Positions 13,495 to 28,795 of a stretch of DNA of 64,000 nt are shown in pieces. Location of the stretch: assembly GCF_007746075.1 (NCBI RefSeq), contig NZ_CP036339.1:4927786-4991785 (forward strand), given 5' to 3'. Origin of the DNA: Lacipirellula limnantheis (GTDB lineage: Bacteria; Planctomycetota; Planctomycetia; Pirellulales; Lacipirellulaceae). The notes under the pieces are model-generated. The model saw only the letters and a list, made by a program, of their open reading frames with translations, searched no databases and was not told the DNA's origin. Each line of letters opens with the position of its first letter. Within the stretch, counting starts at the first letter, position 1. The position numbers and the translations under genes were made by a program.

Positions 13495-13543
13495 TTGAGT
13501 GGGCGATGAGGGGCTCGAACCCCCGACATTCACGGTGTAAGCG
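13495..13543. repeat. attL: displaced tRNA-Val 3' half
   Basis: Identical over 49 bp to 28747-28795. It contains the T-arm and part of the anticodon arm, then diverges exactly where the element's own sequence begins. It is not a functional tRNA: the D-arm and 5' acceptor strand are missing. Confidence 0.9.
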
Positions 13544-13682
13544 ATGCCGGCCCGAGTAGCTTTTCTCAGCATTTCCCGGGGTTTAGTAGCATTCTAGGGG
13601 CAGGGCAGGGCATTGCAAGCAATTGCACGCGATGGCGATAATTGTCGGGAAATAGCGGTACTCGGGTGGCGCACAGTGGGCG

Positions 13683-13704
13683 CAAACCGGTAAATACCGT
13701 TTTG
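13683..13704. promoter_or_regulatory. 22-bp palindrome near left element end
   Basis: Matches the reverse complement of 28655-28676 with one mismatch (arms CAAACCGGTA and TACCGTTTTG around AA). It lies 140 bp inside the left att repeat. The pair is a good candidate for integrase/excisionase arm sites or for binding sites of an element-encoded repressor. Confidence 0.6.
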
Positions 13705-13732
13705 TCAGAGCAGGGTTCAGGGGGCGAGGGAT

Positions 13733-14110
13733 ATGGGGAGCGACCATTTTCGTGCGATTGCGGCCATGCAGGGGCGGCTAAAGGCAGCCCGATGCCGGTT
13801 CTCTGAGGATGAATATGCCGATGCTCAGCGAGCCCTTGAGCAGCTGAGCAGTTACGAGCTTTCAACTCTTCAAGACATCGCCCCCAGCGCCGCAGGTGAC
13901 AAATCTTGGGCGCCCATCACCGACTTCGTGGGCGACGACGACAGCCCTGATGACATGACGGCCGTTAGCGCCGCGGCCAGCCGCCTTGAAGCTATGGGGC
14001 TAATTGAGAGCGAGTCACCTGCAGCCGGGGACGAGGCCCGTATCGACCTTATGCGGTATCGAGCGACAGATCTGGGGCGCCGGTTTGTCAACGCCGTTCG
14101 AAGCGACTGA
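13733..14110 (+). CDS. Hypothetical protein in element, 125 aa
   Basis: Soluble helical protein. The N-terminal half (about 1-45) is helical (MQGRLKAARCRFSEDEYADAQ omitted in part) and rich in Ala and Arg; the middle is acidic (FVGDDDSPDDMTA). The C-terminal half reads like a winged-helix fragment (AASRLEAMGLIESES, then RYRATDLGRRFVNAV), so a DNA-binding role is possible. It is the first gene inside the left end, opposite in direction to the replication module. No family named with certainty. Confidence 0.6.
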   Translation: MGSDHFRAIAAMQGRLKAARCRFSEDEYADAQRALEQLSSYELSTLQDIAPSAAGDKSWAPITDFVGDDDSPDDMTAVSAAASRLEAMGLIESESPAAGDEARIDLMRYRATDLGRRFVNAVRSD

Positions 14111-14253
14111 GGGAGAACATCGCCGCCGACTTATGTCAGGGATGCCATTGCTGGGTCTCCAACGGGTTAGGGGGAAATTGTTGACTCGAATCTCTGAACT
14201 GCTTATGCTGACGCACAGCTGACCGTGGGGGGAACAACACGGGAGCTAGACTA

Positions 14254-14883
14254 ATGAGGCATCTTCTTATCGTTCTCTTTTTGCTGGGTATTTCCCCGGC
14301 CATGCCTGCTGGTGCCATTCCAATTCAGTATCAATTCACGATACAAACGGGGGCCTTTTCGCACCCTGCCAGCCACCCGCTTCGCAACGGCGCTACGCTC
14401 GAACTGGCATTTGTTTGGGATGCTGCGACTCTGGAGCCCACAGAATCCGGCCCATTCATCACGGGATGGCGTCCCCGTGATGCGGCGTCAACTGTCACAG
14501 TAGTAGGCACGAGTGCGAATGATGGCGTATATCAATTGACTCCAGCACCCAACACTAATTTCAAGTGGATTTTTTTTGACGATGTTGGCACGGGGTCTGA
14601 CGACCAGATATTCTTCCCTCCAGTAGATTTCATCATTGGCGGCGTCAAAGTTGGTATTTCTCTCCCGATAGCCCGATTCGACAAAACTACGGTGAGTCGC
14701 GGAGGTTATATTTATCCCTTTGCTTTTGAGAATGGCGACGCGAAGTGGGGGCTCACAGGAGTGAGCGTTCCAGGCGGGGGCCGGCTTGTCAGTGGCTCGG
14801 CCACATTTGTGCCGGAGCCAATTGGCGGCGTTCTTATGACTTCCGCCCTCCTCTCCCTCGCCGCCCTCCGTCGCCGCAAATAA
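14254..14883 (+). CDS. PEP-CTERM exported protein, 209 aa
   Basis: Signal peptide at residues 1-21 (MRHLLIVLFLLGISPAMPAG), a beta-rich exported domain (about 22-180) and a C-terminal PEP-CTERM sorting signal: VPEPIGG, hydrophobic helix, then the basic tail RRRK. This signal directs export and processing by exosortase, which is encoded elsewhere. The middle domain is not recognised. It is cargo on the integrative element. The stop codon starts a TAACCCCGCCGCC motif that recurs after two other genes. Start ATG at 14254 fits the signal peptide. Confidence 0.85.
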   Translation: MRHLLIVLFLLGISPAMPAGAIPIQYQFTIQTGAFSHPASHPLRNGATLELAFVWDAATLEPTESGPFITGWRPRDAASTVTVVGTSANDGVYQLTPAPNTNFKWIFFDDVGTGSDDQIFFPPVDFIIGGVKVGISLPIARFDKTTVSRGGYIYPFAFENGDAKWGLTGVSVPGGGRLVSGSATFVPEPIGGVLMTSALLSLAALRRRK

Positions 14884-14899
14884 CCCCGCCGCCCATGCC

Positions 14900-15061
14900 A
14901 TGCAAGCTATCAGCTGTTCCATTGTTGTGTTGTCTGGCGCGTTAATGTGCTCTTCCGCAACGCTTGCCGGCTTCAACCCGATTTCGTTCATCCTCGGGCT
15001 TGGCGTGCTAATCATCGGCCTCTACGCTTGGGCGCTGACTTGCACCCGTCCGAACAAATAA
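14900..15061 (+). CDS. Small membrane protein, 53 aa
   Basis: Short frame read directly, start ATG 14900, stop TAA 15059-15061. The N-terminus is signal-like (ISCSIVVLSGALMCSSATLA) and a second hydrophobic segment follows (FILGLGVLIIGLYAWAL), ending TCTRPNK. It may be a two-pass or secreted-and-anchored microprotein. It starts 17 bp after the PEP-CTERM gene stop, so the two are likely cotranscribed. Its stop is again followed by CCCCGCCGCC. Function unknown. Confidence 0.5.
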   Translation: MQAISCSIVVLSGALMCSSATLAGFNPISFILGLGVLIIGLYAWALTCTRPNK

Positions 15062-15202
15062 CCCCGCCGCCTGCCCGACTTCTGCTATTGCGGCTCTCTC
15101 TCTCCTTTCTGCGACTATCTCGCGCCCAATCCCCCCTGGGCTTATTACTGGTCGGCGTCCGTACTGGCGGCGCCGGCTGGCATTTTCAATTCAGGCGGAA
15201 CG

Positions 15203-15246
15203 CCACGCCGGTCAGGGTCGTTGGGCAGTACACCCGACCGGCGTGG
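15203..15246. repeat. Long imperfect hairpin in element
   Basis: Left arm CCACGCCGGTC-A-GGGT (15203-15218) pairs with ACCCGACCGGCGTGG (15232-15246), 15 pairs with one bulged A and a 13-nt loop. No T-run follows, so a terminator is unlikely. Its role is unknown. Confidence 0.5.
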
Positions 15247-15306
15247 CCTCCATTTGCGTTACCGCCGCCGCCTGCCCGCGACGGGGCTTGCCCAAGGCTT
15301 GGACAA

Positions 15307-15326
15307 TTGGGGATTCGCATCCCCAA
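15307..15326. terminator. Hairpin at convergent gene end
   Basis: TTGGGGAT-TCGC-ATCCCCAA, 8-bp perfect stem, abutting the stop codon of the 37 aa minus-strand ORF. It may act as a transcript end structure. No T-tract. Confidence 0.35.
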
Positions 15327-15440
15327 CTAGCGCCGCCGAGCCTTAAACGGCAGCACGTCACGCCACGCCGCCGCACTCTTGAACGGCTTCGGCGGGTCTC
15401 GTAGGTCCATCGTGCCGGGGTCTTCGGTCAGGGATGCCAT
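15327..15440 (-). CDS. Small protein, 37 aa, ideal ribosome site
   Basis: Short frame read directly: ATG at 15438-15440 preceded by CTGGAGGATTC, an almost perfect Shine-Dalgarno. The product begins MASLTEDPGTMDLRDPPKPF and ends in basic FKARRR. Strongly charged, no membrane segment. Small basic proteins of this kind are frequent in phage-like elements. Possibly in an operon with the 49 aa ORF upstream, whose stop is 18 bp away. Confidence 0.45.
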   Translation of the reverse strand: MASLTEDPGTMDLRDPPKPFKSAAAWRDVLPFKARRR

Positions 15441-15458
15441 GAATCCTCCAGGGTCAAA

Positions 15459-15608
15459 TTAGTGTGCTACAGATTCGATGCTCCTGTCGGCGGCGGGCTC
15501 TGGTGAGTCTCCTTCCCAGTGCCCGCCGCCGTTCTTAATTGCTACCGGCAAGAATCCGGCACCGCGGCACAAGTACGCAGGATTTGTCAGGCACGGTGCG
15601 GGTGCCAA
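15459..15608 (-). CDS. Possible small protein, 49 aa, TTG start
   Basis: Inside a longer open frame, a TTG at 15606-15608 preceded by AAAGGAGTATTGTT gives a 49 aa product (LAPAPCLTNPAYLCRGAG..., then KNGGGHWEGDSPEP). The ribosome site and the tight spacing to the 37 aa ORF argue for translation; the non-ATG start and size argue for caution. Confidence 0.3.
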   Translation of the reverse strand: MAPAPCLTNPAYLCRGAGFLPVAIKNGGGHWEGDSPEPAADRSIESVAH

Positions 15609-15739
15609 AACAATACTCCTTTGGTAGCTTCCGGGCGGCGCCGAGGCGTTGTTGTGTCGACCCTCAGCAAGTCGGCCCGCCCGGATCTTATAGGAGCCCC
15701 GCCTGCCCACGCGCGGGGTGAACCCGCTACACTGCATCT

Positions 15740-15886
15740 ATGCGACGCATTTCGCTGCGACAAATGCTTGTGATCGTTACCGCGCTGACGCTGCTCGTCG
15801 GGCTTTTAACTTGGGTGGCACGATCCGTTGAAGCCGATGTGCAGCGCATCAATGCCGGCCGTGAGCGACTTCGAAGCTCAAACTAA
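15740..15886 (+). CDS. Small membrane protein, 48 aa
   Basis: Short frame read directly, ATG at 15740, TAA at 15884-15886. Basic start (MRRISLRQ), one hydrophobic helix (MLVIVTALTLLVGLLTWV), then a charged amphipathic tail (EADVQRINAGRERLRSSN). Looks like a single-pass membrane microprotein. The stop is followed by CCCCGCCGCCTGCCC, as after the 53 aa ORF. Function unknown. Confidence 0.5.
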   Translation: MRRISLRQMLVIVTALTLLVGLLTWVARSVEADVQRINAGRERLRSSN

Positions 15887-16427
15887 CCCCGCCGCCTGCC
15901 CGCGACGGAATTGGAAAGCACGCTGCACATCAGGCGCATGCTTCATCGCCTCCAATGTTTGCTTTTCCTGGCGAGAACTCGCCCCACGACCGCAAGGCAA
16001 TCGGCGATCGCTTGCTTTAGTTAAGTGGACGGAAGCGCGCAGCTAACTAGACAACCATCAGCCAGCGTCAGTCAACGATCGCATCCAGAATGGCGCGGAA
16101 ACGCCAAGCAAAGTGCCGCGACACGACGCCATCGGCCCCGAACGCGTGGTACGCTGAACGACGGCGGACGTTCTAGCACACGTCGGATGCAAATGAGCAA
16201 TGCTCGCGAGAGGGGAACAACCTACCGGTCTTGCGGCGATCGACCGAGGTGTTGATTAGATCGCCCCGACCCCCAAGGGTTAATTCCAGAACTCAACACG
16301 CTGGCAGAAATTGTCTCGCAATCTGCGTTGGCGATTAGTGCCACGCTGCAAAACTTCTCCGACCAATGAAAGCGAAGCTCGGAGAGGCCGCGCGAACTTC
16401 CAGCGAGCTGATGACGAACGAAATCGC
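15887..16427. other. Intergenic stretch inside element, nothing recognised
   Basis: About 540 bp between the 48 aa ORF and the end of the broken endonuclease gene. Short frames here have no ribosome sites and poor composition. No strong palindrome or known RNA was seen. Confidence 0.4.
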
Positions 16428-17307
16428 CTAGTCGGGCTCGTGCTCCGCCGAATGGAACGCCGCCTCTTTCGCTGCAATTTCATTTCGCAGACGTGAGTTA
16501 AAGGCGGCTGCATCCGACGCATAATGGCAACGTCGATGGCAGTTGGGACAGATCGCGGCGACGCGATCTGTTTTTGTCAGGACCACCGTCCGCCAAACGA
16601 TCTATGTGATGAACTTCGAGAAAGGGAATGCCAGATGGCGTAGTAAAAGGCGCTTCGCTTCCGCAGGCTTCGCAAGTCCCGCTTGCGCGCAACCGTGCAT
16701 AAAGAGCTACCTGAGCTGATCGATGATAGATCGTTTGAATTCGTTGTTTTGCTGTGCCTCCACTGTTACCGCTGCCTTTCAACGATTCGCGAAATTGATT
16801 CAAATCAACGTTCTGCGCGAATGGAAGTTCGGTCGTCGCGTAGTTTGCGGAGTCTTCAATGACCGGAAGCAGCTTAAAGATGATCGCCTTACGTGGATTC
16901 CCGTTCTTGTCTGGGCGATCTTCGAGTGTGTGATCGAAGTAACTAACTGCGTGCGAGTAACGCCACAAACCGTCTTTCCGTTGTACTCTCTCGAACAGCA
17001 GCACATCCCGCCCGTCGGCGACGTGATCTCGAATCGCACGATTCGCGATGGTCCACTGCATGTCGCCGACAGTTCCTTCGCCGCTGTACCAGTAGACTCC
17101 ATCTTCATCGAAACCATCTTGATAGAACTGTTGTGCTGGTTCCTCCGTGTGAAATAGCAGCACAACCGGCTCTCGACTCGATGTGACGATGCCAGTCATC
17201 CGATTACCACCGAAACGATCATTCAGGTGTTTTCGGCGATAGATGGCGCCGAGTTCCAACGGACCTAATGCTGGAACCGTTTGGTACACAAGTTCATGTG
17301 GGGGCAT
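16428..17307 (-). pseudogene. SRA-like/HNH type IV restriction endonuclease, frameshifted
   Basis: Modification-dependent endonuclease of the ScoMcrA-like group. Residues about 12-150 form the SRA-like domain that reads modified DNA: LGAIYRRKHLNDRFGGNR, EGTVGDMQW, NRAIRDHVADGRDVLLFE. The HNH nuclease begins GTCEACGSEAPF with LEVHHIDRLADGGPD near residue 232. In the original frame this then turns into nonsense and stops at 16498. Dropping one base in the A5 run (T5 at 16571-16575) restores TDRVAAICPNCHRRCHY and runs to TAG at 16428-16430. So the second zinc-ligand pair and the final His were lost by one inserted base. A sequencing error or programmed slip is possible. Confidence 0.8.
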
Positions 17308-17369
17308 GGGGTCATCCTGCCGAAGTTGCCGTTACTTTCACCCGCCGCACTGACCGCACGGCTTATCCG

Positions 17370-18617
17370 CTAGCGACAATCAAAATCGCGGGAGCGTCGA
17401 CCGTGCGGCGTTGTCGCCGCCGAGCAAATGCCAACTAGAAAGAGAAGACCCGCAACAACCTGCAGCGCCGAAGATGGCTCGGGTACAACAGACGTTTCGA
17501 GTGAAGGCTGCGGCGCAAGACTCCTAAGAAACGCAAGATTTGTACTCCAGTCGGCGAGGTCAGAACTATCGTGAGTTGTCTCGAACCCTCGCTGCCAAAT
17601 TAAGAAATCATTCCCGTCAGAATCACCGTCTTGATCGAAGTCGCCCGCAATGTCGAGTTCGGCGAGCCAGCCTTCAAATTTGCCGTTTGGATTCTTACCG
17701 GTGCCGACAATGGTGCGACCGTCTGCGGAAAGATAAGTTGAGTGTCCGGTCGTCATGTCCCAGCCGGTCATGTCGATGCCAGCGTCGGTGAGGAGGCTTT
17801 TTACCGACCTCGTGCCGCTAGCCGGCGTCCAGCGAAACGCCCCGTCGCCCCCCAAGTTTGGGTTGCCATAGCCCGATATGGCAATCTTGGCCGCCGAAAC
17901 GTCAGTTGCGTAACCATTGGTCCATTGACCGAGACGCACCATCCCCGTTGCTTCGGTCCAGTACATTGGCAACTCGTTCTGTTGGCCTGGGCCGACAGCC
18001 CCCTTGCTCGTTCCGACGACAAAGCTTCCGTCCGCTGACACAGCTAATGCCTGACTGGAATAAGCCCAACCCGGTAGGTCGCCGAGCCATGTTCGGACTC
18101 CGCCTTCGTCCCTGAATCCCTCGTCGAAGCCGCTGCCGCCTACGACTACCTTTCCATCCCATGAAATATCCTCGCTAGTGCCTCCGTAGAACGTGCTATA
18201 GCTCGTAATGCCAATCACAATTGACCCATCGTAGGACGTAGCAACCGGCTCATACATTCTAGGCGGCAACAGAGTAATTCCCTCCGATTCAGTCCAGCGA
18301 TACGGTTCTGAGCTGCCGGCAATCAAGTGGCCAATGACAACATTGCCATCAGGCGAGATCGCGTTCGCTGTACGAACCTGGGGCAAGTCAGGTCCTCCGG
18401 TGAGAAACTTCAATCCAGCTACGTCAGTCCAGAGAAAAGCCTTCTGTTCAGGGAAGTATGATCCCACAACCTTCGTGCCGTCGGCCGACACGCCTTCTAC
18501 TACCATCGAAGCAGAACCGATTCCGGGAGGCAGGCCGAGCGGTAAGAACCTGGCCGCCTGGCCGACGGTGGTGAGAAGGAGCGTACATAGGGTGAAGGAC
18601 GTTAGCGTCTTCATCAT
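17370..18617 (-). CDS. Exported HAF-like repeat protein with dockerin-like and PEP-CTERM ends
   Basis: Start MMKTLTSFTL at 18617 gives a signal peptide; the frame's 113 upstream codons are not natural. The body (about 25-330) has repeated VSADGTKVVG, SPDGNVVIG, SWDGKVVVGG, SADGSFVVGT and SADGRTIVG motifs with FLWTDVAG and YWTEATGM units, a beta-propeller pattern like HAF extracellular repeats. Then GDFDQDGDSDGNDFLIWQRG is a dockerin type I-like calcium loop, and VPEPSS plus a hydrophobic helix and Arg-rich tail is a PEP-CTERM signal. Cell-surface role likely; partner unknown. Cargo of the element. Confidence 0.85.
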   Translation of the reverse strand: MMKTLTSFTLCTLLLTTVGQAARFLPLGLPPGIGSASMVVEGVSADGTKVVGSYFPEQKAFLWTDVAGLKFLTGGPDLPQVRTANAISPDGNVVIGHLIAGSSEPYRWTESEGITLLPPRMYEPVATSYDGSIVIGITSYSTFYGGTSEDISWDGKVVVGGSGFDEGFRDEGGVRTWLGDLPGWAYSSQALAVSADGSFVVGTSKGAVGPGQQNELPMYWTEATGMVRLGQWTNGYATDVSAAKIAISGYGNPNLGGDGAFRWTPASGTRSVKSLLTDAGIDMTGWDMTTGHSTYLSADGRTIVGTGKNPNGKFEGWLAELDIAGDFDQDGDSDGNDFLIWQRGFETTHDSSDLADWSTNLAFLRSLAPQPSLETSVVPEPSSALQVVAGLLFLVGICSAATTPHGRRSRDFDCR

Positions 18618-18793
18618 GGAAGCCTCGAAGAGAAGCCTAAAAAACTGGTGCTGAAAGCGACTCCGCTGCGAATTTGCGGAGCAAAACGCGCAGGCGTGTG
18701 ATTGCCGGTTGCGACCAGCTTGGCGTTCAAGGTACATTGGATACGAGTCTAATGCGACCTTTTTATAGCCACAAAGGCCATCTTTCTTGCTCA

Positions 18794-18925
18794 TTACGCT
18801 ATGAGACTCGGCCGCCGCTTCACGCTCCGCTCGGCGATCATCGCCACGACGATCGTGGCTGGGCGGCTGGGGATGTCGGTCGTGTTGTAGGATGTTTCCG
18901 CGCCGGCGGTTTGAATGCCGGGCAT
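18794..18925 (-). CDS. Small ORF, 43 aa, related to 21289-21447
   Basis: Frame read directly: begins MPGIQTAGAETSYNTTDI and continues ATIVVAMIAERS. Aligns with the 52 aa ORF at 21289-21447 at MPxI, SY, T.I, IV and RS, and DNA around both starts is also alike. The repeated occurrence upstream of two exported-protein genes suggests either a real family or a shared DNA element. No strong ribosome site. Confidence 0.35.
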   Translation of the reverse strand: MPGIQTAGAETSYNTTDIPSRPATIVVAMIAERSVKRRPSLIA

Positions 18926-19244
18926 GAGCAGTGCGCCGAATGACAAGAGCCGGCACTGCAGAGTGAACCGTAATTCATGATCGGATCGACGGCGGCAATG
19001 TGCCGGTTACTTGCCGGTTGATCTGGCACGCTTTGAAAGCCTCAGACGTAAGTCACGGCAGGTGTGTCGTTCTGTTAGTGTAAAAGATCGGGAACACGTC
19101 GGGAGTCGAGCAACCTCGGTCTGTTGACGACACGCCAAACGTTGCCAGCGAGGGAGGGGGGGCTACATACGACTCGCGAATGAGATCGATCAGGGGGTGC
19201 GGTAAACTCTCTGCACAGCCGTGGGACCCCCGGCATGCTTCGCC

Positions 19245-19328
19245 GATGCGGAGACTACTCTCACGGTTCCCAACACGCGAAGGGGCGGGAGGCGTTTCAA
19301 AATCTCCGAGCAAGGCAAAAGGGGACCC
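19245..19328. repeat. 84-bp repeat, copy 1
   Basis: Aligns without gaps to 23261-23344, about 76% identical by my count. Best-conserved ends: GCGGAGACTACTC and GGCAAAAGGGGACCC. The rest of 18926-19508 shows no convincing gene. Confidence 0.6.
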
Positions 19329-19508
19329 TATTGATGGACCGTCCGAAAACGCCTGCCGTCGCCACTCGATCCCCCATGCTCACCTACGTCCGCTAGGCCG
19401 TGGCGCCGTTTGCTTCGCGGCAAGCGTTGGCTGTTTGCCGTTGTGGTGGCGGAGCGAATTCACACCAGCCTACGAATATCAGCAAGGCTTCCAATTTGAT
19501 CAAAGGCT

Positions 19509-21179
19509 CTAGAAGCTACGATGGATACGGACTTTGCCGCGCATGCAGATATGGTTGACATCAGAGTCGACCGTGAAAAGTGCAGTAAAGTCGCCGCTTG
19601 AGAAGAGTGAGTCCGTGGCTAGTCTACTCGTCCTTGCGGCGTCTTCCGTTTCGGATTGCGTAAGCATTGCGCCGATTGGCGCAATGGCGTCTTGCCAGAC
19701 TTGTAAGTCCATAGAATCTACCAGCCCGTCTCCGTTCCCATCTGCTCCTTCGCCATTGGGCGTCGCACTTGTGCCAAATGCACGCTGCCATGCAAGAAAA
19801 TCCGCGCCATCAACAATGCCATTTGACGTGTAGTCGCCAAGCGGGGCCGGACGAAGCGACCACAGCTCCGGTCCATGCGTGCCATCATTCGCCGTAAAGA
19901 ACAGCTTTCCAGCGACGTTGACTAGACTGCGTGGGTCGGACCCTTCATTGCCAGGCCGAATCTCACCGACCTGGACAGTCCCAGCTTCGGTGCCATCAGT
20001 TTTCCACACTTCGGCATTTCTGGTCGCTCGATTGTCGCCGTCCGCACGGAAGTACAACGTGCCATCGACGTTGGTCAGATTGGAAATGCGCGACCCACTC
20101 CAACTTGGCATCAAATCTCGTACTTTGACAGTGCCTGCAGCAGTGCCATCCGACTTCCACAACTCGTCATTGAAGTAATCGTCGTTGGCCACGAAGTACA
20201 GTGTGCCTGAGACATTCGTCAATTGTCGTGGGTTTGAATCGTAGGAACCGGGAAAGACATCGCTCACTCTCACAGTCCCTGCTGGGGTGCCGTTGCTTTT
20301 CCAGAGTTCGATGCCTGTGATTGAATCTTCTTTCGTGAAGAACAGGGTTCCCCCAACGTTTATCAAATTATCTTGACCTGCCAAGCCATGAGTAGAAGCG
20401 TCAAGCTTGGTGAGCGTGATGGAGTCTTGTTTCCACAATCCATCCAAGTCCGCGAAGTACAATACGCCGTTGACATTCGTAATCTGCGACGGATTGTTTG
20501 CAGGTATCGATAAGGGTACTGTGCCAGCCGAACTTCCGTCGGTACGCCACAGCCCATCACGTCGCGAAGTATTCGTAATCGACGTTGCTATAAAGTACGT
20601 GAATCCATCTATCTCCGTAAGCTGTCTAGGGTCTGTGATGCCATGGCGTATATACAGGTCCTCGATTCTGTATGTGCCAGCCGAAGTTCCGTCGCTCCGC
20701 CAAAGCGAGTTAAGGTGCGTTTCATCGTACACCGCGAACAGCAGAAGTCCGCTGTGGTTAAACAGGGTTTGGTTAAAGCTAAAGTCGAGTCCGGGCGTGG
20801 AGTTCGTAACCATCACCGTGCCAGCTTCGTTTCCGTCGCTCTTCCATAGCTGGTAACCATGCGCGCCGTCGTTCGCCATGAAGTAAAGAACCCCGCTGAC
20901 GTTGACGAGCCGGGAGGCAGTATTCAACCCGCTACCGTTCGGATTGATATCCTTAACGAGAAGCGTGCCTTCCGCTGTACCGTCGGATTTCCACAATTCA
21001 TTCCCGTGCTGGCTATCGCTCGCAGTAAAGAAAACGTGGTCTCCCACTTCGGTGAGCACGCGTGGACCATTGTCGACGTTTTCGCCATTAAGGTCATCAA
21101 CGTCTGCGACTAGATATGGAACGGCGCTGAACGCGAGGCGGTTTTCAAGCGTCTCAAATCTCAACGTATTCGCAAACAC
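19509..21179 (-). CDS. ELWxxDGT repeat surface protein, 556 aa
   Basis: N-terminus FETLENRLAFSAVP matches the LEPR/LENR-type motif at the start of large planctomycete surface proteins. The body (about 35-440) holds about nine units built on ELWKSDGTAEGT (variants SLWRSDGT, EVWKTDGT, ELWKSNGT) alternating with L.NV.GTLYF.A.D, a beta-propeller-like repeat. A dockerin-like tail follows: GDYTSNGIVDGADFLAWQRA and GADGNGDGLVDSMDLQVWQ, two calcium-loop halves. No PEP-CTERM; the last 50 residues have no motif. Export presumably relies on the unusual N-terminus. Cargo of the element; likely adhesion or surface structure, by inference. Confidence 0.85.
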   Translation of the reverse strand: MFANTLRFETLENRLAFSAVPYLVADVDDLNGENVDNGPRVLTEVGDHVFFTASDSQHGNELWKSDGTAEGTLLVKDINPNGSGLNTASRLVNVSGVLYFMANDGAHGYQLWKSDGNEAGTVMVTNSTPGLDFSFNQTLFNHSGLLLFAVYDETHLNSLWRSDGTSAGTYRIEDLYIRHGITDPRQLTEIDGFTYFIATSITNTSRRDGLWRTDGSSAGTVPLSIPANNPSQITNVNGVLYFADLDGLWKQDSITLTKLDASTHGLAGQDNLINVGGTLFFTKEDSITGIELWKSNGTPAGTVRVSDVFPGSYDSNPRQLTNVSGTLYFVANDDYFNDELWKSDGTAAGTVKVRDLMPSWSGSRISNLTNVDGTLYFRADGDNRATRNAEVWKTDGTEAGTVQVGEIRPGNEGSDPRSLVNVAGKLFFTANDGTHGPELWSLRPAPLGDYTSNGIVDGADFLAWQRAFGTSATPNGEGADGNGDGLVDSMDLQVWQDAIAPIGAMLTQSETEDAARTSRLATDSLFSSGDFTALFTVDSDVNHICMRGKVRIHRSF

Positions 21180-21697: not shown

Positions 21698-22309
21698 ATG
21701 AAACAAACCGTCTTACTCGCGGCGTTCATCGCAACAGCGTTTTTCCGCCCGGTCGTCGCCGCCGAGTTCGTGGTAAAGCCTAACATTTCCCCCAACAACG
21801 TTTATAGCTTCTACGTCGATGGCGGCAATTTCAACGGGTCTTTCGATGCTATTTTTTTCCAAGCGAAGAGCTATCTGGGATCTTTCATCAATGCAAACAG
21901 CGGTGCCTCCGCGGGCGTCCCCCGTCCACCGGGGGATCTCTTCACCTACCCGAACCGGATGTTGACAGCCGATCCGCTGGATTTTCCGGGCGGCCTAGCC
22001 CTCACGCAAGTTGGCTTGATTAACAATGGCCAAGAGTTGTCGTTCACCGTTGGTAAGCTTGGCGGTACGATCACGACTGCCGCTGAGCCCGGCGGCGACT
22101 TGTTCCTTGGGAACGTGATGATGAGTAGCGGAGGCGGTTTTTCCTACCAGATTCAACTCATATCAGCGGGAAATGTCCTCTATGATACGGGCATCAATAC
22201 CATTCCGCTCACAGATCCAACGTTTCCCGAACCGAGTGGCTTGGTGATCGCCGCGGTGGGGATGGTCGGCCTCCTCTCCTCACGCCGCCTTCGCCGCCCG
22301 CAAGGATGA
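21698..22309 (+). CDS. PEP-CTERM exported protein, 203 aa
   Basis: Signal peptide at 1-22 (MKQTVLLAAFIATAFFRPVV), Gly/Asn/Phe-rich exported domain (about 23-170) with beta-sandwich-like periodicity (VDGGNFNGSFDAIFF, QELSFTVGKLGGT), then PEP-CTERM: FPEPSG, hydrophobic helix, RRLRR tail. Same exosortase-dependent class as the protein at 14254 but not a close relative. Cargo on the element; substrate or structure unknown. Confidence 0.85.
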   Translation: MKQTVLLAAFIATAFFRPVVAAEFVVKPNISPNNVYSFYVDGGNFNGSFDAIFFQAKSYLGSFINANSGASAGVPRPPGDLFTYPNRMLTADPLDFPGGLALTQVGLINNGQELSFTVGKLGGTITTAAEPGGDLFLGNVMMSSGGGFSYQIQLISAGNVLYDTGINTIPLTDPTFPEPSGLVIAAVGMVGLLSSRRLRRPQG

Positions 22310-22863: not shown

Positions 22864-22945
22864 GCAATGAATTTCGCTGGGGCGAAGCGGGTAAACCTTC
22901 CGTCGGTGGGTACTGTCCTAACAGCGTGTTGCTAGGACAGTTTTT

Positions 22946-23110
22946 CTAATTGCCCTGGAGGTAGAGGGGTGCGCTGAGCGCAGCGCCAATTAGCAGCAAG
23001 ACTAGCAGCGAAACGACTTGAACCCACCTGGCTTTAGGCGTCTTGGCCCAATGCGGAGTGACGCCACCGAAGCTCATTAGGTAGCCGACGAATCCCCATA
23101 AGTCTTTCAT
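22946..23110 (-). CDS. Small membrane protein, 54 aa
   Basis: ATG at 23110 follows GAGGGGC, a good ribosome site; the upstream part of the frame is not natural. Starts MKDLWGFVGYLMSFGGV, a polar loop with Trp, then a strong membrane helix (VVSLLVLLLIGAALSAPLYL). A two-segment microprotein. Function unknown. Confidence 0.5.
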   Translation of the reverse strand: MKDLWGFVGYLMSFGGVTPHWAKTPKARWVQVVSLLVLLLIGAALSAPLYLQGN

Positions 23111-23915
23111 GCCCCTCAGTGTAGCGGGTGGGGGCTGAAGAAAACGACCGCACCAGCTGCCCCGTAACGCGCCTTCGCAGGCCGCCGAAGGGAATCTACC
23201 AGCAACCACTGGGACGCATTAGCGTGGCGCTGAGGGCCGCAGAGCGTGAGGTTGTACGGGGACGCGGAGACTACTCGAACAGTTCCCACGGCATGAGGGG
23301 GCGGGGGGCGATTAAAAAATTCTCAACCGGGCAAAAGGGGACCCACGAAACCACGCCCGACCAAGCGCACAAATTGCGGCGACCGGTCCGTCTGCCCATC
23401 CAGCGATCGGCACGCACTTCACGCCCGCGCCGGGAGTCGTTCTCGCGCGGCGCGGGCTAAAGTCAAGTTGTCAAAGATCGCGAGTCGAAAACTACCGCAA
23501 ATCAAATCGCAGTCGAACGTCTCGCCTCATCGGCGCCAAGCCGCACGGTGCAGCAATGCCCTAGAAGGCCCCTAGTTGGCGCGCTGCTGCGTTATAAGGT
23601 TATCTTGACTCTTTACGCTTGAGACGCCGCGGCGCGCGCCCTGGTGGCTCGTAGGGCCTGCCGTGAGGCATCCTTCGTGGCGCGCCGTTCTGGCGAGACC
23701 TTGGACGTGCTTGGAAGCAGGTCGCTTCATCGTTTTCGTAACTCTCTCCGGGTTAGAGCCAATTGGCCCCTCTCGCGTATGAGGCCGGATGCGGCCGTTC
23801 ATTTGTTAAATTAACCGGCTTTCTGATCGATTGGGGTTTCGTTTCACTCCGAGACTTGTCCGTCAAATGGCAGACGTAGCAACCTTCCCCATTGCTGACA
23901 GCGAAACTAAGCCCC
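23111..23915. other. 800-bp intergenic stretch in element
   Basis: Holds the second 84-bp repeat and a perfect 10-bp hairpin GCCCGCGCCG (23423-23432) / CGGCGCGGGC (23448-23457). A weak minus-strand frame from 23730 (MKRPASKHVQGLA, GGAGAG upstream) is not convincing. No known RNA seen. The region separates cargo from the replication module. Confidence 0.45.
23261..23344. repeat. 84-bp repeat, copy 2
   Basis: Ungapped partner of 19245-19328, spaced 4.0 kb apart and in the same orientation. One frame reads RRLL..FP..EGAGG in both copies, but a stop follows at once in this copy. Confidence 0.6.
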
Positions 23916-24158
23916 CTATGTGAAACTCGCGACAAATTGTGCGCACTTAGCGTTATGGTTTTGGAACTCACCGCTCTGGAAACTGACCGTCCCCCCGGGG
24001 TCATTCGCCGCCACAGCCGCCGCATGAGCCGCTCCTGCGTCATCGAACACAACGGACCTGCCGATGTCGATGCCACGACGGATGCCTTCCACGCGAGCCA
24101 GCAGCCGCTCGATGCGGTCGCGAACGCTGTGGTCAAAGGTGAGTTGTTGCTGGGTCAT
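23916..24158 (-). CDS. Short hypothetical in replication module, 80 aa
   Basis: Start MTQQQLTFDHSVRDRIERLL at 24158, preferred over the upstream ATG because that extension overlaps the iteron array. A helical, charged N-terminal part (DRIERLLARVEGIRRGID) and an Ala-rich middle (DDAGAAHAAAVAAN). Last gene of the minus-strand module, separated from the helicase by the candidate origin. Could be an accessory replication or regulatory protein; unproven. Confidence 0.5.
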   Translation of the reverse strand: MTQQQLTFDHSVRDRIERLLARVEGIRRGIDIGRSVVFDDAGAAHAAAVAANDPGGTVSFQSGEFQNHNAKCAQFVASFT

Positions 24159-24177
24159 TGGGTTTCCTTTCCGACCG

Positions 24178-24286
24178 GTGTGAACACTGTGAACAGTTTG
24201 CACCCACTTTCCGGTTAATTTCTATTTATTTCTCTCGTATAGGGACTAATAGGGGAAAGTGTTCACACTGTTCACACTGTTCACAC
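24178..24286. other. Candidate replication origin with iterons
   Basis: Three perfect tandem 9-bp iterons TGTTCACAC at 24260-24268, 24269-24277 and 24278-24286 face two inverted copies, GTGTGAACA (24178-24186) and CTGTGAACA (24187-24195, one mismatch). Between them is an AT-rich core at about 24214-24250 (TTAATTTCTATTTATTTC). The array directly follows the helicase stop codon, the place where satellite islands with their own Rep/helicase commonly have their origin. Role inferred from layout. Confidence 0.7.
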
Positions 24287-24287
24287 A

Positions 24288-25655
24288 TCAAATAACCAGC
24301 CCGAATCCGCCATATCTGTAGCCATCTCGGGTCTTACTTTTGGTGAACAGTTTTTCCAAAATGCGGCGTCCGAAGGCTGTTTGGTTCACCGCACGCTCAT
24401 TCAACCGCTCACACCACGCCCGATAGTCTCCGAACGCCTCACTCGCTTTGCAGCCGGCGTGCTCGGCAACTAGGCATCGTTCATCGAACCAGCGAGCGAA
24501 CGAATCCGACTCGGCGCGATACTCGCTCGTGGCTTCCACAACGCACGCTGGCGCCTTCAATCCGTCTCGTCGCCACGCCAGGCAACCGTCAACGCACCAC
24601 CGCAAGATTGAGCCGAGTTCCTTCCGCAGCTTTTGCTGGAGTTGGTTGTCTTGGCGAGCCTCGTCGATCGTCACGCTGAACGGGATCAGCAGTAGCCGAC
24701 GCCAGATGCCGTGGTCAGTGCCACGAACGACAGGCCGGTGGTTGGTGGTCAACAGCACTTGATGCGATGGCTTAAACTCCCAAAAGTTCTCACGCATCCT
24801 GCGAGCCTTGATGGTGTCGCCGCCGCATAGCTCTTTGACTAGCGGCTCGTTCAACCGGGCTCCGTCCGCCGTCTCGCTGATGCAAACAAGTCGCTTGCCG
24901 TGCAGGTCGGCCAATTCGCACGGATGCCGTTCGCCCCGGCTTTGCATGAGCAGCCCCGCCGGAGCCTTGCAGGCGTACTCGCCGAACGCCGTCAACAGCG
25001 TCTCGGTGAACACGCTTTTCCCGTTGCTCCCGTTGCCGTACAGAATGGGCAACCGGTGCTCCATCACGAGTCCGGGCATCGCCGAGCCAATCAGCCGCCT
25101 GATGAACGCGATAAGCTCGACGTTGCTGGCGAATATCCGGTCGAGAAACTCCAGCCACAGCACTGGCTCGCTTCCCGCTTCGGTCGGATAAATCAGGCAG
25201 GTCGACTTGGTAATCAGGTCGGCGCTGTCGTGCTTCCGCAATTCGCCGGTTCGCAGGTCCACCGTTCCGTTGATGCAATTCAAATCCCAAGGGTCGGCGT
25301 CCAGCTTGTCGACGGTTATCGGCAACGGGCGTTCACTCTTCGCCAGTTCGACCATCGACTCCAGCCGGGCCCGTGAGTGTGAAAGCCTCGCCCAGTTCGC
25401 CAGCGACTTCTGCAACGAATCTGAGCCACAGACGGCAGCCTCAGAGTAGATGCTCGACGCGGTTTGCTTCGCGTATCGCATCACCACGCCGTTGTCGTCA
25501 GCCCGCCAACGAACGCCGTCGAACCGCAGCCACGAGTTCCAACCGTGGACGTAGCGAAGATGGCGCCCGTGCTGTTCGGCGAACCGAGCAGCGTTGGAAA
25601 CGTCATTGCAAACGTCGCGTTGGATGGCTTCTAGTTGTTGGATACGCACGCTCAT
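24288..25655 (-). CDS. D5-type SF3 replicative helicase, 455 aa
   Basis: Phage/plasmid P4-family helicase. A D5_N-like region (about 30-190) precedes the superfamily 3 ATPase: Walker A YGNGSNGKSVF (about 206-216), Walker B-like LVCISETADG near 259, Motif C LLTTNHRP near 300, and arginine finger region GIWRRLLLIPF. The C-terminal domain ends RDGYRYGGFGL. A primase domain at the N-terminus, common in longer relatives (700-800 aa), is absent. The gene overlaps the 109 aa ORF upstream by 4 bp (translational coupling), and the candidate origin directly follows its stop. Confidence 0.88.
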   Translation of the reverse strand: MSVRIQQLEAIQRDVCNDVSNAARFAEQHGRHLRYVHGWNSWLRFDGVRWRADDNGVVMRYAKQTASSIYSEAAVCGSDSLQKSLANWARLSHSRARLESMVELAKSERPLPITVDKLDADPWDLNCINGTVDLRTGELRKHDSADLITKSTCLIYPTEAGSEPVLWLEFLDRIFASNVELIAFIRRLIGSAMPGLVMEHRLPILYGNGSNGKSVFTETLLTAFGEYACKAPAGLLMQSRGERHPCELADLHGKRLVCISETADGARLNEPLVKELCGGDTIKARRMRENFWEFKPSHQVLLTTNHRPVVRGTDHGIWRRLLLIPFSVTIDEARQDNQLQQKLRKELGSILRWCVDGCLAWRRDGLKAPACVVEATSEYRAESDSFARWFDERCLVAEHAGCKASEAFGDYRAWCERLNERAVNQTAFGRRILEKLFTKSKTRDGYRYGGFGLVI

Positions 25656-25981
25656 GCAACCGCCCCCCGTTCGTCTTCGGCGATGCGGTCCACTTGCGAC
25701 AACGCCCGCCGCTTTGCCCGTGCGTATAACGCGACAGTCGCTGCCAGCGGTGCTATGAACGCATTGCCGCGAAGCTTGGAGCGGTCAAAGAGATGGCGGA
25801 ACCGGAGCGGTATCGAGCACTCCAGGCATTGCTCCGCAAGGTCTTCTAAACCGCAAGTGTCTGGTTGCGGAATCTTGGCAACGTGAATGTCGATGTTCCG
25901 TTCAGCGAAAAATTCGACGTAGTTGCCGTTACAGACGGCGAGAACCTGTTGCCGCTGTAGTGGTTTCTGTGGATACTCCAT
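25652..25981 (-). CDS. Hypothetical protein coupled to helicase, 109 aa
   Basis: Overlaps the helicase start by 4 bp. The sequence starts MEYPQKPLQRQQVLAVCNG, has a beta-strand-like middle (NYVEFFAERNIDIHVAKI) and two Cys (TCGLEDLAEQCLEC), ending helical and basic (ARAKRRALSQVDRI). Coupling suggests it works with the helicase, perhaps as a DNA-binding or loading partner. No family recognised. Confidence 0.6.
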   Translation of the reverse strand: MEYPQKPLQRQQVLAVCNGNYVEFFAERNIDIHVAKIPQPDTCGLEDLAEQCLECSIPLRFRHLFDRSKLRGNAFIAPLAATVALYARAKRRALSQVDRIAEDERGAVA

Positions 25982-26053
25982 TTGCTCGCTCTCCAGAATT
26001 GCGGGGGCCGGTCGCCGCGGTGGCCAAACTTTGGCGACCGGCTTCCCCGTGGT

Positions 26054-26227
26054 TCACTCTTCCCCGATGCTGCCCGGGTCGATGGCGTGGTGGTCACTGC
26101 CGCTATCTCGTTGCTTGTCGAGATAGCCCGCCAGCCGATGCAACTCTCGCAACGCCGCCGTGCGAATCTCCGCGACGGGGTGAGCCGCTAGCTCGACCAC
26201 GCTCTGCCAAGTGGGGGTAACGTCCAT
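26054..26227 (-). CDS. Small helical protein, 57 aa
   Basis: Read directly: ATG at 26225-26227 with CTGGAGAAACT upstream, TGA at 26054-26056. Product is helical and charged (MDVTPTWQSVVELAAHPVAE, then RTAALRELHRLAGYLDKQ) with an acidic end. Gaps to the neighbours on both sides are 72 bp, in the same direction, so it sits in the module operon. Confidence 0.55.
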   Translation of the reverse strand: MDVTPTWQSVVELAAHPVAEIRTAALRELHRLAGYLDKQRDSGSDHHAIDPGSIGEE

Positions 26228-26299
26228 AGTTTCTCCAGGGGTGCGACCGACATAGAAACGCCCATACGCTGGTCGCGGTGCGACGGGGCGATGAGTGAC

Positions 26300-26590
26300 C
26301 TAGACGCCGGCCTTGGCTAGCTCGGCTTCGGCCTTGCGAATTGCCGCTTCACGCTGGCGATTGGTGCGGGGTCCGGGAGCGGTGACGCCAGTGGCGGCGG
26401 CGGTGGAGCGTTCTACGAACCGCTGGAACGCCTCTTGAGTGGTGTAGCGGCGTCCACCGATGCTGAAGGTTTCCAACACGACGCCTTTGACGCCGCGGTT
26501 TGACCATCGCCACGGAGTGGGAACAGAGACGCCCTCCTGCCGGGCGAGTTCAGTGAGTGAGAGCCGACGCTCTTTAAGAAAATCGACCAT
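26300..26590 (-). CDS. DUF1580 helix-turn-helix protein, 96 aa
   Basis: Start at MVDFLKERRLSLTELAR (26590; AGGA upstream), not the longer frame. The N-terminal part reads as an excisionase/MerR-type HTH: LSLTELARQEGVSVPTPWRW, then NRGVKGVVLETFSIGGRRY, the pattern of planctomycete DUF1580 proteins. C-terminal half is basic and helical. In satellite islands, such small HTH proteins next to the integrase act as excisionase or copy/transcription regulators; inferred from position here. A palindrome overlaps the region just upstream of its start. Confidence 0.75.
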   Translation of the reverse strand: MVDFLKERRLSLTELARQEGVSVPTPWRWSNRGVKGVVLETFSIGGRRYTTQEAFQRFVERSTAAATGVTAPGPRTNRQREAAIRKAEAELAKAGV

Positions 26591-26599
26591 TATATCCTC

Positions 26600-26631
26600 G
26601 CAATTGGTGATGAAGTGAATCACACAATTGC
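26600..26631. promoter_or_regulatory. Palindrome upstream of DUF1580 gene
   Basis: GCAATTG (26600-26606) and CAATTGC (26625-26631) with further partial pairing (GTGAT / ATCAC). It lies 10-41 bp before the DUF1580 start, so autorepression is plausible. Confidence 0.45.
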
Positions 26632-26672
26632 AAAACTAGTCGGTCGATATCAGTGTCGTCGAACCCGGAAAG

Positions 26673-26719
26673 CACGCTCTCTGTAAGTCGTTATTAGTAA
26701 GGCCATTACGGAGAGCGTG
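26673..26719. promoter_or_regulatory. 14-bp inverted repeat with repeated arm
   Basis: CACGCTCTCTGTAA (26673-26686) pairs with TTACGGAGAGCGTG (26706-26719), 13 of 14. The arm's AGAGCGTGTATG occurs again as direct repeats at 26712-26723 and 26738-26749, 26 bp apart. A protein-binding array or transcript end are both possible. Confidence 0.5.
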
Positions 26720-26754
26720 TATGGTCCCGGAAGCGGTAGAGCGTGTATGACATG

Positions 26755-27342
26755 TCAGGAAGTCAGACGTTTTAGCTCAGCTTTGTGCTCCTTGCTGAGC
26801 CAACTTGTGTCGTATTTGCCGAGTAAGAGCCGACTAATAGCCTGGTTGGTCGCCCCTTCCGTTCTCTGTTGGGCCTGCTGCTTCAATCGGGGGATGTTGC
26901 GTTCGCCGTCCAGGTACGCCTCGATTAACTTCTTGATTTTCGGTCCCGCCTTGATGGGGGGTCGGTCAACTGACTCGCCCGCCGGCTCGCCCTGGGCAGC
27001 CAGTGCCGCGTCGATCAGAAGTTCCTTCGTTGGCCACCATCGCCACAGTAGCTTATCGACTTCCACAACGGGAACTCGAAAGGCGCTCATGCAGCCGAGG
27101 GGGTCTTTTGCTTGGATGGCCCGCATCAAGTCCAGCATGGGGGTCGGATCGTGCGGGGTTTTCTCCGTCATCCACGCAGCTAGTTGCAAGCCGAGAGTTG
27201 AGAGCCGCGGTGGTAAGTCGGGGGCGAGTTCGCTGTCCCAGAAGTTGGCGACGATGGTCTCGAAATCTTCGAGAGCTTCGAAGAACTCTGTCCAGTTGGT
27301 GATCTTGCCGACACGCGGCGAAGCATTGGATTGGGGAACCAT
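26755..27342 (-). CDS. Hypothetical protein in element, 195 aa
   Basis: Soluble protein. A helical N-terminus (WTEFFEALEDFETIVANFWD), a Trp-rich middle (VEVDKLLWRWWPTKELLIDA), and a basic C-terminal helix-turn-helix-like part (KIKKLIEAYLDGERNIPRLK then AISRLLLGKYDTSW). DNA binding by the C-terminal half is plausible. It lies between integrase and DUF1580 genes, all leftward. A hairpin follows the integrase stop before its start. No family recognised. Confidence 0.6.
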   Translation of the reverse strand: MVPQSNASPRVGKITNWTEFFEALEDFETIVANFWDSELAPDLPPRLSTLGLQLAAWMTEKTPHDPTPMLDLMRAIQAKDPLGCMSAFRVPVVEVDKLLWRWWPTKELLIDAALAAQGEPAGESVDRPPIKAGPKIKKLIEAYLDGERNIPRLKQQAQQRTEGATNQAISRLLLGKYDTSWLSKEHKAELKRLTS

Positions 27343-27375
27343 CAGAATTGCCTTACCTTTCCGCCGAGCGACCAG

Positions 27376-27409
27376 CCGGCGCCGCAGCGGTAAGGTACTG
27401 CGACGCCGG
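27376..27409. promoter_or_regulatory. Hairpin between integrase and next gene
   Basis: CCGGCGCCGCAG (27376-27387) pairs with CTGCGACGCCGG (27398-27409), 11 of 12, loop 10 nt, between the integrase stop and the downstream start. May attenuate read-through; no T-run. Confidence 0.4.
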
Positions 27410-27452
27410 CGGGTCTGGCGGGGAGCTACCCCGCGAACTCGACAATGAGAAT

Positions 27453-28628
27453 TTAACCGATACGCTTCGCCACTTCCAAACCCTTCGCCAAATCACGCTC
27501 GGCGTAAACCTGGGTCACGTCCGCTTTGGAATGGCCCAGAACTATCTGCGCGGCTTCCAGTCCGAATTCGCGACGGACTTCGGTCGCCGCGGCGTGGCGC
27601 AACTGGTTGGGTGACCAATGCTCGATACGGGCCTTGATACAGGCGCGAGTGATTGCCACAGCGTAGGAGCCAGTCTTGAAGCGGCCACCCGGTTTCCGCG
27701 CGGGCTTCCGCTTGCGATTTGTGCCGGCCCGATTGCCGCACGACAGTGGCGTCTTTCTGGCCGCCGCCCGCTGCTCGCGCCACCATGCGGCAGATTCGCC
27801 GGGGGAGAAACAGCAGTCGATTGCATCCCGCAGCAGGTAGGGACGGAGAATGTCTTGAGCCTGCGGGCCAATGAAAATGGTTCGGTCCTTCCCGAAATGG
27901 GCCGTTTTGTGCTCGGCAGGCTTAGCCGTCCACACCTCGCCGGAGCGATCGACGTCGCAAGGACGCAGCTTGCAAACCTCCCCGGGTCGCGCACCTGTCA
28001 GCAGTTGGAATCGAACCATTGCAGCCACGATGGGCGACAGATGGGGCAGGGTGGCTTCGACGATTTTTGGCTCGACCGGCCTCACTGGCTCCGTCTCTCG
28101 CAGCGTCGTTCGTCCCTTGCGTAATCCTGGGATGATCGCCAGCGTTTGAGCAACATTGGCGGGGATCTTTCCTTCGGCGGCGCCCCAGCGGAAGATCGCA
28201 ACCATCCTGCTCATCAACTCGTTGACGTGACCGCGGCTGTGGTCCTCTGCGATGATCGCTTGTCGAACTGCCTTGAACTGGACCACGCCGAACTCAGCCG
28301 CCGGCGTTCGACCATATAGGGCCTTCAGAGGCCGCGCAACGCGTTTCATCGTCGCGAAGGTGCCGTGTGTCCTGTCGCCGTAGTACTCCTTGGCGAACAG
28401 CAGGTAGTCGGCGACGAGCTCGACGATGGTCAGTTCGGGCTGCGCGGCGCCGAACGAAGCAGACCTCCCCGATGACAGCCACTCAGTGACGAGGCGATCA
28501 TATTCGAGCTTGCTTGACTTAGAGTTGTGTGGACCGAGATAGTGATCGCGACCATTGATGGTGACGATCGCCTGCCCACTAGCGCGATGCTTCCGATACT
28601 TCGGAACAGCTTGAATTAGACGTGGCAC
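27453..28628 (-). CDS. int: Tyrosine integrase of tRNA-Val element, 391 aa
   Basis: Site-specific recombinase for integration and excision at tRNA-Val. The GTG start at 28628 is chosen because GGGAG lies 9 nt upstream and the product then begins (M)PRLIQAVPKYRKHRASG, the usual planctomycete integrase start; the frame itself opens at 28703. An N-terminal arm/SAM-like region (about 1-175) precedes the catalytic domain: first Arg in LLTGARPGEVCKL, second motif NQLRHAAATEV (HxxR), then LGHSKADVTQVYAERD with the nucleophile Tyr. A 40-residue Arg/Lys-rich insert sits before the HxxR box. Confidence 0.93.
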   Translation of the reverse strand: MPRLIQAVPKYRKHRASGQAIVTINGRDHYLGPHNSKSSKLEYDRLVTEWLSSGRSASFGAAQPELTIVELVADYLLFAKEYYGDRTHGTFATMKRVARPLKALYGRTPAAEFGVVQFKAVRQAIIAEDHSRGHVNELMSRMVAIFRWGAAEGKIPANVAQTLAIIPGLRKGRTTLRETEPVRPVEPKIVEATLPHLSPIVAAMVRFQLLTGARPGEVCKLRPCDVDRSGEVWTAKPAEHKTAHFGKDRTIFIGPQAQDILRPYLLRDAIDCCFSPGESAAWWREQRAAARKTPLSCGNRAGTNRKRKPARKPGGRFKTGSYAVAITRACIKARIEHWSPNQLRHAAATEVRREFGLEAAQIVLGHSKADVTQVYAERDLAKGLEVAKRIG

Positions 28629-28654
28629 GTGCGAATCTCCCGAGCTTCGAACGC

Positions 28655-28676
28655 CAAAACGGTATTTACCGTTTTG
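28655..28676. promoter_or_regulatory. 22-bp palindrome upstream of integrase
   Basis: CAAAACGGTA-TT-TACCGTTTTG, perfect 10-bp arms, ends 27 bp before the integrase start codon and 71 bp inside the right att repeat. Near-identical site at 13683-13704. Likely controls integrase or forms part of the recombination complex. Confidence 0.65.
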
Positions 28677-28746
28677 CGCTCTTGGGAAATGCCGCACTGC
28701 CAAACGTTGGCAGGTGTCAGAAACTCATGACCGGCTAAGACTTACA

Positions 28747-28795
28747 TTGAGTGGGCGATGAGGGGCTCGAACCCCCGACATTCACGGTGTAAGCG
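28747..28795. repeat. attR: repeat inside intact tRNA-Val
   Basis: Perfect 49-bp match to 13495-13543. It covers the tRNA 3' end through the anticodon arm plus five flanking bases. The crossover lies somewhere within the identical stretch. Confidence 0.9.

Follow-up and report, generated by a model that had tools for sequence, protein, structure and literature searches.

A probable satellite-type integrative element in a tRNA-Val gene of Lacipirellula limnantheis, with relatives across its planctomycete order

Introduction

What occupies the 15 kb between two perfect copies of a tRNA-Val 3' half in the planctomycete Lacipirellula limnantheis, and how would such a segment move between cells? 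We analysed a 64,000-nucleotide stretch of this genome (contig NZ_CP036339.1, positions 4,927,786 to 4,991,785; hereafter the window), in which a preliminary description had recognized a satellite-like integrative element with its own integrase and helicase. Our results suggest that the segment is probably a satellite-type integrative element belonging to a family widespread in the planctomycete order, with transfer by a helper phage as the most likely route. Most described phage satellites come from Enterobacterales, Vibrionaceae and Gram-positive cocci, and marine and soil examples have recently been added (PMC11389934). In line with the preliminary description, we found no paper linking planctomycetes with 'phage satellite' in the literature searched, and this kind of satellite has probably not been described before in the phylum. 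The literature searched contained no mention of DUF1580, the domain that characterizes one of the core proteins.

The element and its insertion site

The boundaries, core genes and putative DNA sites are listed from the tRNA inward (window coordinates).

28751-28824, minus strand: intact tRNA-Val(TAC), its 3' half supplied by the element (ARAGORN)
28747-28795, minus strand: att repeat on the tRNA/integrase side, 49-bp perfect direct repeat
28655-28676, no strand: putative integrase arm site, 22-bp palindrome CAAAACGGTATTTACCGTTTTG, centred 85.5 bp from the tRNA 3' end
27453-28703, minus strand: tyrosine integrase with a lambda-like N-terminal arm-binding domain (PF00589, E 1.5e-12), likely start GTG at 28628
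26755-27342, minus strand: 195-aa protein between integrase and DUF1580, no family
26300-26623, minus strand: DUF1580 winged-helix protein, candidate excisionase/regulator (PF07618, E 5e-13)
25652-25981, minus strand: 109-aa protein adjoining the helicase on its upstream side and conserved in part of the relatives
24288-25655, minus strand: D5/SF3 helicase with a C-terminal Pox_D5/RFX-like DNA-binding domain (PF08706, PF19263, PF03288, PF02257)
24178-24286, no strand: probable origin, a 63-bp AT-richer spacer flanked by inverted arrays of two and three 9-bp iterons
13683-13704, no strand: putative second arm site at the far end, a palindrome copy 194.5 bp from the tRNA-3'-end equivalent
13495-13543, minus strand: att repeat at the far end (tRNA 3'-half fragment), 49-bp perfect direct repeat

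The two att copies are 100% identical and comprise the last 45 nt of the tRNA and the 4 nt that follow it, bounding a segment of 15,252 bp (15.25 kb). In a search of the 6.83-Mb host genome allowing up to 3 mismatches the 49-bp repeat occurred in these two places only, so that it is not a product of chance and the tRNA-Val(TAC) gene is single copy. The GC content is about 0.63 in the flanks versus 0.53-0.60 within the element. The genes for the integrase, the 195-aa protein, DUF1580, the 109-aa protein and the helicase follow one another on the minus strand, with the iterons and then the cargo beyond them, and the reading frames of integrase, DUF1580 and helicase are open. Scans of 21 open reading frames (ORFs) of the window with Pfam and/or PHROGs gave no capsid, terminase, portal, tail or relaxase gene. 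The preliminary description was therefore correct as to the perfect repeat pair, the gene set (PF00589, PF07618 and D5_N/DUF5906 matches, with 3 + 2 inverted 9-mers) and the lack of virion, terminase and conjugation genes among these ORFs.

The same locus can be followed in other genomes, which, like the loci below, are designated by our working labels. In the same-genus genome G004 the tRNA-Val gene is identical at 46/46 bp across the att core (element bases 13498-13543, 100%), and its right-hand neighbours are those of the element's right flank, at 76-81% DNA identity. The similarity stops at the tRNA 3' end, where a large histidine-kinase-like gene is found instead; neither integrase nor helicase follows the tRNA-Val 3' end in G004. 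The oxidoreductase of the left flank has no close ortholog conserved in the genus, and for this reason the exact empty site that the preliminary description had proposed for comparison cannot be rebuilt, although the same tRNA and right flank were recovered without the element. Judged by its sequence, the G004 locus supports insertion, short of full empty-site proof. In G077, where an ortholog of the same neighbour also adjoins this tRNA-Val, the site holds another element, 9.8 kb long, which encodes a different integrase and a D5 helicase. Together with the att repeats, the intact integrase and homologous elements in many tRNA genes, the G004 comparison firmly upholds the assignment to integrative elements.

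Integrase and putative arm sites

The start of the integrase, GTG at 28628, is placed from its relatives. The predicted structure finds its best structural matches among lambda integrase tetramers, and the protein had no match in 50,697 phage records. At almost every locus of the family, whichever the tRNA, a palindrome with the consensus CAAAACGGTAnnTACCGTTTTG is centred about 86 bp past the tRNA 3' end; in nearly all of 45 non-redundant integrase loci the centre lies 82-89 bp from it. With one mismatch allowed, the pattern matches the host genome three times, at the two ends of the element and at the integrase end of an element in tRNA-Ala. A reversed control pattern gave 0 matches in 45 genomes searched, and an integrase relative adjoins the palindrome at 19/25 retrieved sites.

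A second palindrome copy is found at the far end, at about -194 in this element, G027, G010 and L165, at -184 in G018, G020b, G032 and L166, and at -172 in L073, while L181 has one half-site each at about -194 and -184. In the present element this copy has one mismatch against the consensus half-site, and in L170 and L076 far arm sites were not found. Since the steps between these positions equal one helical turn, an integrase-DNA complex fits better than a simple operator.

The half-site CGGTA is associated with Asp28 in the integrase (Fisher p 3.6e-5, 45 loci that are not phylogenetically independent), and where palindromes depart from CGGTA the integrase usually has no Asp in the VTLxGxDxYLG stretch, which forms an N-terminal beta hairpin in the lambda-Int-like model. 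We infer that the palindromes are putative arm sites of the integrase. This fixed attachment-site signature is new here, and the combination of an arm-site rule (a palindrome about 86 bp past the tRNA 3' end) with a far-end rule offers a simple way to find and delimit such elements. At one tRNA-Ile locus (L154/L178, G003:C1 about 6091.8 kb) the palindrome stands at the usual distance with no recognisable integrase of the family, which we read as a decayed or swapped element.

DUF1580 and small core proteins

The DUF1580 protein has a weak match to PHROG 66, an excisionase family, and its model predicts a MerR/Xis-like winged helix. The fold matches reach Z 7.4 at most, under the level that separates true relatives from the common winged-helix arrangement. 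A DUF1580 gene lies downstream of family integrases, on the same strand and 0.8-3.9 kb away, at 26/37 loci, and the host genome contains exactly two copies, both beside an integrase of this family. The predicted fold and the weak PHROG match make DUF1580 a likely candidate for the excisionase or switch.

The 109-aa protein has homologues beside the helicase in L081 (35%) and L138 (33%), and one of 36% in another element of the host genome (element E, see below). No Pfam or PHROG family could be assigned to the 195-aa protein or to a 125-aa protein at the far end.

The helicase and a probable replication origin

The preliminary assignment of a D5/SF3 helicase was confirmed (D5_N/DUF5906, E 2e-30; PF19263, E 5e-11), and the protein also matches PHROG primase/helicase families. 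Here the D5 domain comes without a primase domain. Directly 3' of its gene are three copies of a GTGTGAACA-type 9-mer (24260-24286) and two inverted copies (24178-24196). Two inverted arrays of 2-3 near-identical 8-mers, mostly in 9-bp steps and at most 260 bp 3' of the helicase gene, were found at 13/24 loci and in none of 960 shuffled sequences, in a test that required tandem inverted arrays; a score based on iteron counts had been dropped as not selective. In the relatives the arrays flank a spacer of 47-82 bp, usually AT-richer. The iteron sequence varies among relatives while the layout is kept, which fits recognition by the C-terminal DNA-binding domain of the helicase itself. The inverted iteron pair is a probable replication origin, new here and open to direct test, from which the element may replicate. 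In the crenarchaeal plasmid pRN1, likewise, replication depends on a sequence that lies downstream of the replication gene (PMC4234260); pRN1 is an archaeal plasmid with a different replication protein, and the likeness concerns position.

An order-wide family

Relatives of the integrase were found in 69/98 genomes and of the helicase in 35/98; a search of genome contigs with the helicase gave two distant loci only. Integrase and helicase are found together, in most cases separated by DUF1580, at tRNA-Ala, -Asp, -Asn, -Leu and -Val genes; several of these elements are bounded by direct repeats 42-69 bp long. The gene-order search suggested earlier thus recovers the order integrase, DUF1580, helicase, but beside many tRNA genes rather than tRNA-Val in particular. 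The compact layout is shared by many relatives of 7-15 kb; others, of up to 22-41 kb, carry kinase, FHA, EAL or reverse-transcriptase cargo. To judge from these comparisons, the element is a member of an order-wide family with one insertion and copying machinery.

Two individual loci add detail. The cargo of the 11.1-kb L170 (G007:C12) includes an FHA-EAL protein and a fusion of a protein kinase with a tubulin-like protein. In L076 (G056:C86) and in G027:C3 the far att repeat is followed immediately by the start of a second integrase of the same family, which suggests that elements are arrayed in tandem within a single tRNA gene.

Capsid-bearing relatives and other elements of the host genome

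Five relatives carry capsid, portal or terminase genes. L073 (10.3 kb, tRNA-Ala) encodes an integrase (42%), a helicase (50%), an HNH protein, a weakly matched terminase small subunit and a capsid protein. L181 (10.9 kb, tRNA-Met) combines integrase, DUF1580, DUF3987, terminase small subunit, capsid and a ClpP-type protease; L076 (15.1 kb, tRNA-Asn) integrase, DUF1580, helicase and portal; and L185 integrase, DUF1580, helicase, terminase large subunit and capsid. In L082 (13.7 kb, tRNA-Gln) a different integrase stands with a helicase (48%), ParB, terminase large subunit, capsid and portal. No tail gene was detected in any of the five, among the 25 families listed per scan of part of their ORFs, and L073 and L181 have no ORF of tape-measure length apart from the replication proteins. 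On this scope the absence of tails is well supported, not complete.

The host genome itself contains further elements. Element D (L187, L188; G000:C1 about 1716961-1732016) measures 15.0 kb and lies in tRNA-Met, with a 43-bp repeat of the tRNA 5' half. It carries terminase large subunit, HNH, capsid, portal and head-morphogenesis genes, no tail gene was detected in it, and it matches L082 at 54-60% identity in terminase, capsid and portal. Across the same tRNA-Met it is abutted by element E (L188; G000:C1 about 1732005-1745172; 20-bp repeat), which has its own integrase, homologues of the 109-aa and 95-aa proteins of the window around a RecA/DnaB-like gene, and two PEP-CTERM-type cargo genes. 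Element B in tRNA-Arg (L006/L007; G000:C1 149-157 kb and beyond) encodes a full-length primase-helicase, 59% identical to the window helicase, and after it a HAF-repeat protein (45% to the window cargo) and a type III restriction-modification-like gene pair. Element C in tRNA-Ala (L009, G000:C1 about 4550.8 kb on) has an integrase of the same family (51%), DUF1580, a ParB-like gene and a reverse-transcriptase-like gene. For B and C no exact far-end tRNA repeat of at least 13 bp was found in the retrieved stretches.

Mode of transfer and alternative explanations

These observations suggest a cycle in which the lambda-type integrase would bind palindromic arm sites on either side of the tRNA core, and the circle would be inserted into tRNA-Val with its 3' half restored. 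DUF1580 would probably act as excisionase or switch, and the excised circle could be copied by the D5/SF3 helicase, starting at the inverted iteron arrays that directly follow the helicase gene. Passage from cell to cell would most likely use a helper phage, this copy being loaded with exported-protein cargo instead of capsid genes. A helper is suggested by those relatives in which capsid, portal or terminase genes are present but tail genes were not detected. The same relatives, which share the integrase and/or the helicase, bear out the earlier label 'satellite-like'.

Several points weigh against this interpretation. No helper phage is known, and the window copy is devoid of capsid and packaging genes; as it has no packaging function of its own, helper-phage transfer is the least certain step of the cycle. 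Identity to the capsid-bearing relatives is no more than 42-49% for the integrase and 38-50% for the helicase, and the arm sites of several of them diverge. Ordinary phages and plasmids, too, encode D5 helicases. The wider integrase family (31-48% identity) is present on IMG/VR viral contigs of 7 to 105 kb, the larger of which may in some cases perhaps be complete prophages or phages, so that the integrase alone does not define a satellite.

A broader proposition, which we regard as evenly balanced, is that the order has its own large family of phage satellites, built on one recombination chassis (integrase, phased palindromic arm sites, DUF1580) to which interchangeable replication modules (D5 helicase with inverted iteron origin, DUF3987, or DnaB-type) and either capsid/packaging genes or host-beneficial cargo would be joined. 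A common family of this kind would tie a poorly understood phylum to phage-driven gene transfer and could explain the movement of exported-protein genes; satellite searches that require AlpA would miss it.

The segment could instead be a self-replicating integrative element that is no satellite, spread by a conjugative helper acting on an origin of transfer (oriT) only, by natural transformation or by generalised transduction. Some integrative and mobilizable elements need only an oriT, and both the lack of packaging and capsid genes in this copy and the kinase, FHA, EAL and reverse-transcriptase cargo of members of 22-41 kb, above the usual satellite size, would suit such an element. We nevertheless think it less likely, as capsid, portal or terminase genes are present in relatives that share the integrase and/or helicase, and no relaxase match was obtained with Pfam among the window proteins scanned, no search for oriT having been made. 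It is considerably less probable that an ancient insertion has become an immobile genomic island with an inert module. One strain of the species was compared and the far arm site has its one mismatch, but the 49-bp repeat is perfect, the core frames are open and the element is absent from the same tRNA in G004. The least probable explanation is a decayed prophage that has lost its virion genes: the phage-type helicase and integrase and the related integrases on larger viral contigs would agree with it, whereas the intact integrase and helicase, the perfect att repeat, the many 7-15 kb relatives of the same compact layout and the maintained origin and arm-site geometry would not.

Comparison with known elements

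The satellite interpretation can be set against described systems. Phage satellites in general lie between attL and attR repeats and measure about 7-20 kb (PMC13376191); the present element has its 49-bp repeats, 15.25 kb, a PF00589, PF07618 and PF08706/PF19263 gene set, and no structural match in the Pfam and PHROG scans. These scans likewise gave nothing like the outfit of an intact prophage, with its terminase, portal, capsid, tail and lysis genes. It resembles the phage-inducible chromosomal minimalist islands (PICMI) of Vibrionaceae in the succession of integrase, small gene, winged-helix excisionase/regulator and DUF5906/DUF3987-type replication protein (PMC10803314), in the absence of capsid genes and in small size, and the PF19263 match of the helicase corresponds to the DUF3987/DUF5906 primase of PICMI. 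In PICMI, AlpA is required for excision and the primase for replication, and insertion at fis is optional in the wider search model (PMC10803314). The Pfam scan gave no match to the AlpA families PF05930 and PF12728, the winged-helix gene in that position being DUF1580. Unlike PICMI, then, the element has DUF1580 as excisionase candidate and a tRNA site rather than fis; it is also larger, with exported cargo and a planctomycete host.

Capsid-forming phage-inducible chromosomal islands (PMC11389934) are approached by L082 and element D, in both of which an integrase occurs together with TerL, capsid and portal while no tail gene was detected. In contrast to them, the window element has no capsid/packaging module, L073 and L181 have part of the capsid module only, and the replication and recombination genes of the family are of planctomycete type. 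The tRNA islands catalogued by Islander (PMC4383910) share the tyrosine integrase, the restored tRNA and the displaced 3' fragment that marks the far end; that catalogue is a general one, whereas arm-site geometry, DUF1580 and origin mark out a particular lineage here.

With P4-like satellites the element has in common a tRNA target, an integrase, a winged-helix regulator, a D5-type helicase and iterons near the helicase gene. The window helicase differs from that of P4-like satellites in having no primase half, and the host phylum and the integrase are different. No PHROG match to Sid, Psu or delta was obtained among 20 ORFs scanned.

Cargo and internal repeats

The remaining features are listed from the far end.

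13733-14110, plus strand: 125-aa protein, starting 29 bp past the far arm site, no family
14254-14883, plus strand: cargo, exported protein with a PEP-CTERM-like tail (from sequence; no Pfam or PHROG match)
16498-17307, minus strand: cargo, HNH-type protein (PF01844 below cut-off; PHROG 15103, unknown function, E 1e-49)
17370-18956, minus strand: cargo, HAF-repeat-like protein with a PEP-CTERM-like tail and a dockerin-like stretch (45% to element B cargo)
19245-19328, plus strand: 84-bp repeat, copy 1, edge of the middle cargo block
19509-21179, minus strand: cargo, ELWKSDGT-repeat protein with a dockerin domain (PF00404)
21698-22309, plus strand: cargo, exported protein with a PEP-CTERM-like tail (weak PF07589, E 0.05)
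23261-23344, plus strand: 84-bp repeat, copy 2, edge of the middle cargo block (87% match at the end of element E)
23916-24203, minus strand: small ORF downstream of the origin, likely start 24158 (weak homologue in element E)

The PEP-CTERM-like C-termini of three cargo proteins were called by eye, one of them having a weak Pfam match. The exported cargo noted earlier is present, but as a distinctive trait it does not hold, because about 150 PEP-CTERM matches in the host genome make this cargo type nothing special to the element. An enrichment of PEP-CTERM cargo was considered and no claim is made, the host genome being full of such genes. Exported cargo does recur in two other islands of the host genome, elements B and E. 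The 84-bp repeat has six copies only in the host genome, one of them at the end of element E (tRNA-Met, PEP-CTERM cargo). Fragments or copies of a short membrane protein with a CFAASVGCLALWWRS motif are scattered in or beside several elements, at 19180-19512 in the window, at 12418-12879 in L187, and at 12270-12710 and 14037-14489 in L188.

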